From Halichoerus grypus (Eukaryota; Chordata; Mammalia; Carnivora; Phocidae), in assembly GCF_964656455.1 (NCBI RefSeq), contig NC_135715.1:149103935-149167934 (forward strand): a stretch of DNA of 64,000 nucleotides, given 5' to 3'. Below the pieces are notes generated by a model. It saw only the letters and a list, made by a program, of their open reading frames with translations. It did no database searches and was not told the origin of the DNA. A program made the translations under genes and the position numbers. Of this stretch, positions 3,154 through 64,000 are shown in pieces (the stretch's first letter is position 1; each line of letters begins with the position of its first letter).

Positions 3154-4545
3154 TCTTTAGCATGTTTCTTGCTAATGATGTGAGCTAAAACGTCTTATGC
3201 TCTCTGGGAGAGAAAAGAACAACATGCCTTCCAAGTGAATGTTAGAAGATAATCACTTTGTTCTCTCTGATGAAATCTTTTCCTATGATTTTAATTTTTA
3301 TCTCGCTGCAGCAATAATTTGCTAAATAAAGATCTTGACAATTCTCTAAGAGCATCTACAACCACTATAGAATCATAGACTAAGGAAATTTGGCCCAACT
3401 GAGGGAGGGAAAACAAATGATTACTAGTTTTCAAAGAGGCTGTGAAGATTTATAAAGATGAATATTCTATAATTAAGAGACATTCCTTGCACTGCAGGGA
3501 CTGGAGAACTGTATTTTTGGAGCATGTGTATTAACTCCTACTGTATCTTTCCTTGAATCCCATATTGTGGTCACACCGTTTTCATTGGTTTTAAATATTT
3601 TTAAGCTCACTTATTTGTCCTTAATTTTTATTGTCCTCTTACTTCAAATGACATTTCGCAAGAACATGTTGGGGCCCTTCCCAGTTGACTACTCCCTCCT
3701 CTCTGTCTGGCCAGGCTGCTATGTTCTAGTCTGTTCCAAAGGTCACTTGTTCCAGTTGAAATAGCTGTCTGGATGGCCTGGAAATAATCCAGAGACTGGT
3801 TCTTTCCTGCAAAGAAAGCAAAGAAAGATGTTTGTTTCTTGGCTACATTTTGAAAGGAAAAAAATAAAAGAATTTTATGACTAAGTCTACTAATAGCTGA
3901 AAAAAAATTAATATAACTCTGGGACAAATTTAAAATTATTATTTTTCAAAGCTTTGTGTCATTTTGCCTTTTTGTATAATTCTTAAAATCAGTTTACTAT
4001 CAAAATCATTAAATAATCAGTATTAGGTAGCTAAGTATATCTAAGAAGTGTGTGCTGAGAAATTTTGGCAAAGATTCAGCATATACTGATTTCTCTCACA
4101 GACAAATGCAAATACACACACTCATGCTTCATTTAGCAATTCAGTTCTTCATTTATTTTATTCTTGGTAACTGCTTTAATTGAAAAAAAAGGCAGCTTAG
4201 GTTATGCTAGACAGTACAGGGAGTGGAGAAGACAGGTAATGAAGGGACAGTCATAAATATTCAGAGATATCAGCTAACCCACACTTGGACAAGTGGCTGT
4301 GCACAGATATTTGACCTGTTCATTTCTCAGACAATTTGGACCATGTGTAGGCTAGAGAGTAATAAGTATGATGCAATTATGCAACAAGCTGTTTCTACAG
4401 TGATTCCTCTTTAATTTCCTTTAGTTCTTTGGTAATGCCTGCAGTTTTCATCTTTTCGACATAAAAGGAATTAAAGGAAAATACCTGAAAATAAGCTGGC
4501 CAATTGTTTCATTACTTCCTGCCATCTATGGCAATTAGAAAAACA
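3154..4545. other. AT-rich DNA, nothing recognised
   Basis: Contains two overlapping short open frames on opposite strands around 3567-3927. Neither shows a recognisable domain or splice context, and I treat both as chance. Confidence 0.4.
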
Positions 4546-4739
4546 TTTTTTTAAAGATTTTATTTATTTTTCAACAGAGAGAGAGACAGCGAGAGAGGGA
4601 ACACAAGCAGGGGGAGTGGGAGAGGGAGAAGCAGGCCTCCCGCTGAGCAGGGAGCCCGATGCGGGGCTCGATCCCAGGACCCTGGGACCATGACCTGAGC
4701 CAAAGGCAGATGCCTAACGACTGAGCCACCCAGGCGCCC
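4546..4739 (-). mobile_element. CAN SINE (tRNA-Lys-derived), full length
   Basis: Read on the minus strand it has a tRNA-like head with a box A (tggctcagt type) and box B-like region, a body with ctgcttctccctctcccac, a CT-rich segment, and a short A/T tail. This is the standard layout of a Pol III-transcribed carnivoran SINE mobilised by L1. The TSD tagaaaaaca is at 4536-4545 and again at 4740-4749. It is close to the arctoid consensus, so it is relatively young. Confidence 0.95.
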
Positions 4740-4749
4740 TAGAAAAACA

Positions 4750-5071
4750 AATATTACTTAGAATCACTTGAGTTTGAAAATTTCTAAACCATAGCTTATT
4801 TGAATGATTACGTAGTTTTTAGTAAGATTACTTAAACTATTTGCCCTAGAACATCTCAGTTTTGATCTATAGAGAATCACTGAACGAGGGTTTTAAACTT
4901 CATCCTTTGATGTTACAGTTACAGTTATAGCTCTGATCTGAGCTTTGACTTTGGGAGAGTCCCATAACGGGGTTCATGAAGTTCATGAACATGAGCTATT
5001 CTTGGCATAAAAAAGAAACAAAGTCCTCCAAACTAACCAAAAAATGTCACAGAAACCACGTATTTCATCTT
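4750..5071. other. No recognised feature
   Basis: Ordinary AT-rich sequence. It includes a small direct and inverted gttcatgaa motif near 4972-4990. Confidence 0.4.
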
Positions 5072-5090
5072 TTATTTACATACTAGTTTA
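5072..5090. repeat. Target-site duplication, left copy (tRNA-half insert)
   Basis: The 19-base string ttatttacatactagttta occurs here and again, identically, at 5130-5148, immediately on both sides of the tRNA-derived insert. Confidence 0.95.
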
Positions 5091-5129
5091 CTAGCACCAC
5101 GCTCTAACCAACTGAGCTAACCGGCCCGC
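5091..5129 (-). pseudogene. Retroposed 5' half of tRNA-Ile, no A-tail
   Basis: On the minus strand this 39-base segment reads as three extra bases (gcg) and then the 5' portion of a cytosolic tRNA-Ile(AAU): acceptor strand GGCCGGT, D-arm with intact box A (TAGCTCAGTTGG), and the 5' strand of the anticodon stem GTGGTG, stopping inside the anticodon loop at CTA plus one mismatched base. The T-arm, box B, acceptor 3' strand and CCA are all missing, so it cannot be a working tRNA gene. No poly(A) follows. Perfect 19-bp direct repeats flank it, which is the signature of L1-mediated target-primed insertion. The break point matches where stress nucleases such as angiogenin cut tRNAs into halves. The tRNA-Ile assignment is from remembered mammalian tRNA sequence and should be checked by alignment. 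Confidence 0.88.
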
Positions 5130-5148
5130 TTATTTACATACTAGTTTA
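5130..5148. repeat. Target-site duplication, right copy (tRNA-half insert)
   Basis: Second identical copy of the 19-base direct repeat. The match ends exactly at both insert boundaries. Confidence 0.95.
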
Positions 5149-5581
5149 AATAAATATTGAATCAATGTCTCCTAGGTAAATAGTGCATCTGGCTGGCAAC
5201 AGTCTCATAAAAGGGGACAGCAAAGACCACAAAACTGTCCCGGCCTTTGTATCTGTTTATAATCTTAAAATTTGTATACAGAATTCTGTCCTTTTAATAA
5301 AGTTGGATGCAAGCATGATTCTAAGATTCCTTCTCAACCTTTCCTACTCCTCAGGACACATTGAAAGACAGATCTCAGCGCATAGTTACACTGGAGAAAT
5401 GGGGCCTATGGTTCTCTTCAAAAGCATCAATGGCTTGCCAAATTTTCAGGATAACTTCAAGATAAATGTTGCATGTCTCAAAGGAATTCAGGGACTCTCC
5501 TCTTTCCAAGTAAACATTAAACTTTGAAAACGCCAACAAAGAAATGTTGAAAAATATATGTTACTACTACATTGAAATACC
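5149..5581. other. No recognised feature
   Basis: It contains an open frame of 114 codons (5183-5527, +) with no recognisable domain. Nothing in its context (splice sites, CpG-rich promoter) supports a gene. Confidence 0.4.
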
Positions 5582-40262: not shown

Positions 40263-41392
40263 TGAAAAATCAATAGGGAAATATTGAACCAAAACTATAG
40301 ACCAAATGCACCTACCAGACACATATAGAACATTCTATTCAGCAGCAACAGAGTACCCATCCTTTTCAAGTACACATGGATCATTCTCCAGGAAAGATCA
40401 TATGGCAGGTCACAAAACAAGTCTTAGCAAATTTAAGAAGGTTAAAACCATACCAGGTATCTTTTATGACCACTATGGCATGAAACCAGAAATTAATACT
40501 AGAAAGGAAGCTGGAAAATTCACAAATAAGTGGAAATTAATTAACTCCTAAAGGACCAATAGGTTAAAGCTGTTTTTTTTTTTTTAGAAAAGATAAACAA
40601 AACTGACAAATCTTTAGTTAGACTAAGAAAAAAAAAAAAAAGAGGAAACTCAGATAAATAAAACCAAAATGGAAGAGGAGACATTATAACTGTTAGCACA
40701 GAAGTACTAAGGATTATAAGTGACTACTATGAACAATATGCCAACAAACTGGATAATCTAGAAGAAATGGATAAATTCCTAGAAACATACAACCAATCAA
40801 GACTGGCTCACAAAGACATAGAAAAATCTTAACAGACCAGTAACAAATAAGGCATTTAAATCAGTCATCAAAATCTCCTAACAAAGAAAAGCCCAGGACC
40901 AGATGGTTTCCCTGGTGAATTCTATTAAACATTTAAGAATTAAGGCCAATCCTTCTCAAACTCTTCAAAAATTTTGAAGAGAAGAGAACACTCCCAAACT
41001 CTTTTTATGAGGCCAGTATTATTCCAATACCAGAGCCAGTTAAGGGCTTTGAAGAAGAGGACTTAACAGCAAAGAAAAAACTATAGGCCAATATCCCTAA
41101 TGAGTACAGATGAAAAAATTCTCAACAAAATGTTAGCAACTGAATCCAACAGCACATTAAGAGGATCATACATCATGATCGAGGGGGATTTATTCCGGGG
41201 ATGCAAGTATGGTTCAATACATGCAGATCAATAAATGTGATACACCACACTAGTAGAATAAAAATAAAAACCATATGGTCATCCTAAGAAATGCAGAAAA
41301 AACACTTGATGAAGCACAACATCATTTCATTATAAAAAATTTCAACAAATTGGGTATAGAAGGAACATACCTCAACATAATAAAGGCCATAT

Positions 41393-41755
41393 ATGACAAG
41401 CCCACAGCTAACATTAAAATCAATGGGGGAAAGTTTTAGTTTTCCCTCTAAGATTAGGTATAGACAAGGGTGCCCTTTCTCACCACTCTTATTCAACATA
41501 GTACTGGAAGTCCTAGTCAGAACCCTTGAGCAAGAAAAAGAAATAAAAGACATCCAAATTGAAATAGAAGAAGTAAAATTGTCTTTGTTTGGAGATAATA
41601 TGATTTTCTACATAGAAAATCCTAAAGACTCTACCAAAAAACTGTTAGAACTCAGCAACAAATTCAGTAAAGTTGCAGGACATAAAATCAACATACACAA
41701 ATTTGTTGTGTTTCTACAAACTAACAACAAAATATCTGAAAAAGAAATAAAATAA
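41393..41755 (+). pseudogene. L1 ORF2 reverse transcriptase fragment, inactive
   Basis: A 120-codon open stretch holds recognisable L1 reverse transcriptase: [18 protein letters not shown] (region before the catalytic block), then [18 protein letters not shown]. The catalytic motif, normally F/Y-A-D-D in L1, here reads FGDN, so the second aspartate is lost, and Ala is replaced by Gly. It is only a fraction of ORF2 (normally well over 1,200 residues). It is a dead relic that happens to be open. Confidence 0.93.
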
Positions 41756-62990: not shown

Positions 62991-64000
62991 CAAATCAGGC
63001 AGCTAGTTGTACATATGGTGGTAAGTATTTCCCTAAATGTGCATGGTTCAGAAGAGTCAAATCATAATTAAAACCACCTTAAGATCAGTGGCCAAACTCT
63101 TTGATGATGAAGCTATTCTGTCATGCCATTTTAATCATAATTATTCTGATCAAACTGCCTAGAAATTTGATGCCAAGATTTTGATAGATTCATGTATGCT
63201 GACAACTTGGGTATTGGATTTCTCCCTTCTGGGCTTTTTTTTTTTTTCTTTACCTTGAATTTGTTATATTTTGTCATATTTTATATTTGAGATGTTTGCC
63301 CCCATTGTTTGTAATTAGCAAGTAACCAAATCTTAATTAACATTGTGATTTTAAGGTGGTTAGTGCCTTGAATGTTCATTACATTAACATTTTTTATGTG
63401 ACTATTGTCATTTATAGGGCATTTGATAGTTAAAATTAATCTTAAACCCTTACTATCTACCTAACTTGGGAGGATACCATTTGTTAAACTAATAATAAAT
63501 TTAGACCAGCTAAGACAAAGGCATAATTTAATTTTCATTTACCTTTTAAATTTCTATTTAAATGACTCATGACTTTCTTGGTTATGAAAAACACAAAAAT
63601 CTACAATTCTTTGGTTATTTGCTTTATCAACCCACGAGTAGAGAAAAATATGCAACCAGTTGTTAGACACAGGTATTGTGTAATACAGTGTATTGCTGTG
63701 TAGCTAATAACATGCCATGATTTCCCAGTAGAAATCTCCAAGTATGCTTTTTGCCTGAATCATAATCCACTGCAATTCAAACTCAGGACTCAATATATAA
63801 TTAAAATCATGACTCAATATATAATTAAATCTCTCCTTTATTTACCTCTTTGATCTGTTCAAATCCCAATATGTGTAGCACATGTATTCAAGAACGTATT
63901 GGATCATAGTCAAAAACTTTGATGGGCAGAGCCCAGGGAAAGAAGGGGAAAAGATGATTGGATTGAATTTTATGGCCTGGGGATACAAAGATGCATAATG
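62991..64000. other. AT-rich DNA, nothing recognised
   Basis: Contains a 24-bp tandem duplication at 63787-63829 (see findings). No coding signal. Confidence 0.4.

Follow-up and report, generated by a model that had tools for sequence, protein, structure and literature searches.

A tailless retrocopy of a probable tRNA-Ile(AAU) precursor in Halichoerus grypus, its siblings and a probable record of wobble editing

A 39-base insert in the genome of Halichoerus grypus is very probably a tailless retropseudogene of a tRNA-Ile(AAU) precursor, made by the L1 machinery through priming in the anticodon loop, with the editing state of the precursor recorded across copies. It lies in a 64,000-nucleotide stretch of DNA, hereafter the window, at C4:149103935-149167934 of the 2.4-Gb assembly that was searched. 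Its class counts thousands of members, to which the insert adds one; the greater interest lies in the set of its siblings. Read together, such tailless tRNA copies are likely a germline record of tRNA maturation, in which leader-bearing precursors of tRNA-Ile were caught before or after wobble deamination and the A34/G34 counts show the extent of editing before leader removal over evolutionary time; the G35 of the window and of one sibling (L049) may record deamination of A35.

Anatomy of the insert

The insert occupies positions 5091-5129, has its sense on the minus strand and is bounded by two repeats (5072-5090 and 5130-5148) that are identical at 19 of 19 positions and have no further copy in the window. 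In sense-strand order it consists of GCG (5127-5129), 35 nt identical to tRNA-Ile(AAU) from G1 to A34 (5092-5126; Sprinzl numbers, 20a included) and a single G at the 3′ junction (5091) in place of A35, followed by the target TAAACTAG. The target-site duplication 3′ of the insert on this strand reads TAAACTAGTATGTAAATAA (5072-5090), and the one on the 5′ side (5130-5148) places the target at TTTATT/TAAAC. The next bases of the tRNA are A35, U36, A37 and A38, and past one mismatch the TAA of the target agrees with U36-A38. An A-tail is lacking, the repeat following directly on that single G. The comparison sequence is that of mammalian tRNA-Ile(AAU). A mouse 5′ tiRNA in PMC11551137, whose row label there is not Ile, differs from the insert's 35 bases at one position. 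The antisense tRNA-Ile part at 5091-5129, the perfect flanking repeats and the missing tail had all been claimed in a sequence-only reading of the window and are confirmed, with 35/35 identity; that reading ended the match at the anticodon loop, and its end is here corrected to A34, the first anticodon base.

A chance repeat or match is ruled out as the origin of this arrangement. Across 60 first-order Markov simulations of the window, complex direct repeats spaced within 150 bp reached at most 11-15 bases, compared with 19 in the real sequence. When 11 tRNAs were compared with the insert, Ile scored 35 and the runner-up 15.5. ARAGORN and the Rfam tRNA model, run on the window, did not detect the insert, as expected of half a tRNA. 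The window's one further 19-bp direct repeat arises from tandem copies of a 24-bp unit (63774-63829).

Tailless retropseudogenes have been known as a class since 2004 (Schmitz et al. 2004, as cited in later papers). The tRNA-derived members described in Noll et al. 2015 (PMC5322556) are 5′-complete, truncated at the 3′ end in a loop and without an A-tail, with duplications of 8-35 nt, targets of the form TT/WAAAAWW and both processed and unprocessed tRNA sources. In the insert, the structured source RNA is represented by 35 nt from G1 and the rest is absent, where the class has lost at least 10 nt; an oligo(A) tail is lacking, the duplication (19/19) falls within the known range, and truncation lies in the single-stranded anticodon loop with TAA as the target complementarity (2-18 nt in the class). 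Its target differs in being TT/TAAAC, and TT/TAAACTA departs once from the consensus. The insert is a tailless retropseudogene of tRNA-Ile and an ordinary member of the known class. The proposed tailless retroposition into an L1-type target is supported both by this anatomy and by the siblings in the same genome, and the anatomy points to L1 enzymes as the putative makers of the insert. The 3′-truncated snRNA pseudogenes of Doucet et al. 2015 (PMC4476161) likewise show truncation in single-stranded purine runs after T, target complementarity and L1-like sites; unlike the insert, they have an snRNA and not a tRNA as their source.

Sibling inserts in the same genome

A genome query with window positions 4960-5400 returned the insert's own locus (441 bases, 100%) together with 40 other places. 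Similarity there is confined to the insert and, at most, short adjoining stretches; the flank is therefore not repetitive, and the same search showed no empty paralogue. Thirty-nine of the 40 places were read (L034-L072), all but an 81% match at C5:75210325. Five siblings were added from a leader-plus-tRNA query (L075-L079) and four from a query ending at C32 (L080-L083), giving 48 siblings with flanks; three more (L084-L086) were partly read. All 48 are tRNA-Ile 5′ parts that break off within the anticodon loop or at its edge, each with its own duplication. The exact tRNA-half pattern had 0 matches in the viral-contig and genome-contig collections.

Duplications were called by script in 44 of 45 copies (the window and 44 siblings), the choice for L049 being uncertain at an A-run, and those of L079 and L080-L083 were read by eye. 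The script-called duplications are 12-20 bases long (median 16); 35 of 44 start with TAA and 25 of 44 are preceded by TT, the window included. A TAA start was found in 2 of 12 script-picked SINE duplications of the window, a significantly lower share (Fisher p 1e-4). TAA was part of the first two genome queries, which are therefore biased towards it; the query ending at C32 is free of this bias but blind to copies cut before C32. Of the 57 candidates from that query 40 were scored, and all 39 rows other than the window depart from the tRNA at the anticodon loop, with position 34 followed by ATAA in 34, ATAG in 4 and ATAT in 1. In L044, L049, L054 and L079 the tRNA part runs to A38 and is then followed by a whole new TAA target. 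The repeats of nearly all siblings begin at U36-A37-(A38), which supports the microhomology priming suggested for the window copy.

The duplication of L050 (C10:25875990-25876400) has TTATTTACATACTA in common with that of the window, but in the reverse orientation with respect to the insert; this looks like a coincidence, though an unlikely one. Two G34 tRNA-Ile matches, at C5:75209742 and C5:75210339, lie about 600 bases apart in opposite orientation.

5′ leaders and position 34

Extra bases stand between the duplication and G1 in 44 of 44 copies (2-12 nt, the longest figures resting on imperfect duplications). The leader ends in GCAGCT in 13 of 45 copies (window and 44 siblings), 11 of the 13 being among the 39 found by a query without GCAGCT. 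Other endings in the 45 are AAGT (10), AGCG (3: window, L035 and L039), GGGT (3) and GGCT (2); the window is possibly AGCG, with its A common to leader and repeat. As the simplest reading of these sequences, several tRNA-Ile genes with different leaders would have supplied precursors that were copied before the RNase P cut. Since extra 5′ bases are the rule among siblings and recur, the GCG of the window is best read as a precursor leader, in line with the earlier suggestion; the assignment is probable, although recurrence is weak for GCG itself, which by itself is found in 3 of 48 siblings (L035, L039, L080), near chance level.

Position 34 varies between A and G only. It is G in 19 of 44 siblings; at the remaining five A positions up to A35 these siblings show A>G in 1 of 220 cases, and substitutions outside position 34 in total number 15 of 1540. 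With L080-L083 included, G34 is found in 23 of 48 versus 1 of 240 for A>G at those five positions (p 1e-19). The set found blind to position 34 has G34 in 22 of 39 (40 of 57 candidates scored). An exact genome-wide pattern gave 40 matches, and its reversed-pattern control none; positions 34-35 read AA in 17, GA in 21 and AG in 2. Position 34 is therefore A in 19, G in 21 and C or T in none, while position 35 is A in 38 and G in 2, the window among the latter (34 versus 35, p 3e-6). All five recurrent leader classes hold both states (G34/A34: AGCT 11/9, AAGT 2/8, AGCG 2/1, GGGT 1/2, GGCT 1/1). In L035, the G34 may derive from its own target.

Inosine is read as G on copying, and inosine-34 on leader-bearing pre-tRNA would best explain the A/G split. 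On human precursors, I34 is reported before leader removal and at a partial level (Torres et al. 2015), and the deaminase is described as requiring a full tRNA (PMC8216470). Given both of these points and the presence of A34 and G34 in every recurrent leader class, the templates were probably precursors, some copied ahead of editing and others following it. The window copy, with A34 and an odd G35, is without the inosine signature. G35 is found in the window and L049 alone (1 of the 39 other exact genome matches), in both cases with A34; it may stem from an incorporation error next to the primer, from a mutation, or from deamination acting on the wrong A. For tRNA-Thr(AGT), the second edited tRNA tried, six exact matches comprised 2 A34, 2 C, 2 T and 0 G; G34 was not replicated, a result that does not favour inosine, although two A34 copies are too few for a test. 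G26>A (4 of 45) was rejected as a modification trace, being at a CpG site, and A26 also occurs in the mouse tiRNA (PMC11551137) and in L074. No paper linking inosine with tailless or retroposed tRNA copies was found in the literature searched, and the accessible text of Noll et al. 2015 (PMC5322556) does not mention an A/G split at position 34; the A/G record across siblings may be the part that is new.

None of the 39 exact matches read (of 40, window included) is a gene, and the searches yielded no full-length gene whose 5′ half is identical; leaders and editing are therefore deduced from the copies and not from source genes. A single clear full-length tRNA-Ile(AAU) gene came to light, L073 (C9:142712465-142712612); it has the leader AGCGGGCT and a one-base difference in the D loop, with C where the inserts have T. 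A gene hunt over 200 kb around tRNA matches and 34 kb of the C9 tRNA cluster gave no 5′ half within 6-7 substitutions, and a diverged tRNA-Ile copy in L031 was found after it. The three full-length-like copies found all have A34. The assembly may be without the source genes.

Template and mechanism of insertion

In the proposed mechanism, a pol III precursor with its 5′ leader bases still on would be taken by the L1 machinery, and L1 endonuclease would nick a TT/TAAAC-like site. The freed 3′ end (...GTTTA) could then pair with U36-A37-A38 of the open anticodon loop of an uncut tRNA, and reverse transcription would run from the loop to the 5′ end of the precursor. A second-strand cut would yield the 19-bp duplication. 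Dozens of such events would have taken place in the same genome, their copies recording whether or not A34 had been deaminated to inosine.

The sequence-only reading had instead proposed as template a tRNA half severed in the anticodon loop, so that the insert may record cleavage; the nuclease would be angiogenin or another RNase. This origin now appears unlikely. Stress halves derive from mature tRNA, and a cleaved mature half would have its mature 5′ end without a leader, whereas GCG precedes G1 in the window and leader bases are present in all 44 of 44 copies. Every insert read does stop within the loop or at its edge, and the mouse 5′ tiRNA of this sequence ends at A35 (PMC11551137), yet the repeats start at U36-A37 in nearly all copies, which would require a template reaching beyond the usual cut sites. 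The extra TAA in L044, L049, L054 and L079, as from an end-joined half, is the best argument for cleavage. Law and Burns 2026 (PMC13174262) propose tRNA halves behind 21 tRNA/L1 chimeras, and precursor fragments do exist, since both the precursor and the processed reads of Torres et al. 2015 include fragments; a cleaved precursor is thus a less likely but possible template. Noll et al. 2015 (PMC5322556) weighed cleavage against internal priming and favoured the latter for the class; for 5S and U2 they detected neither truncated RNAs nor truncations with an A-tail. The 3′ end of the template RNA is not visible in the sequence, as the insert ends overlap the target complementarity. An unprocessed pre-tRNA primed internally is the favoured template, because the leaders are kept, about half of the copies have G34 and the 3′ end lies where the target pairs with the loop; leaders and partial editing point to nuclear precursors.

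Mammals have a few Ile(GAU) genes, and some inserts could owe their G34 to genes of this kind, the gene set here being incomplete. A gene-coded G34 is slightly less probable even than a cut half: G34 stands beside A34 in all five recurrent leader classes, 20 of the 21 G34 genome matches were read and 0 were genes, and the full-length-like copies all carry A34. As the sole cause it is rejected on these three grounds. Derivation from a 3′-shortened carnivore tRNA-derived SINE is refuted by the sequence: the window SINEs and the insert have a short A-box stretch in common, but the closest of these stretches span 13-20 nt and contain up to 4 mismatches, whereas the insert agrees with tRNA-Ile at 35/35. 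The SINE body and A-tail of a carnivore tRNA-Lys SINE are both absent. An antisense carnivore-type SINE with a 10-bp duplication lies at 4536-4749 and is one of the 12 window SINE insertions with picked duplications.

Relation to other tRNA insertions and significance

The sibling set argues for priming on precursors over stress-cleavage relics as the origin of inserted tRNA halves. With the same approach, wobble editing of germline precursor tRNA would become measurable from any mammal genome, for living and ancestral species alike. The tRNA/L1 chimeric insertions of Law and Burns 2026 (PMC13174262) are similar in having halves that end near the anticodon and duplications of 9-19 bp; they are joined to L1, mostly antisense to it, whereas the present insert stands alone.

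Elsewhere in the window, an L1-like reverse transcriptase fragment lies at 41384-41752, where a reading frame matches Pfam RVT_1 (E 9e-12) and appears ORF2-like by eye.
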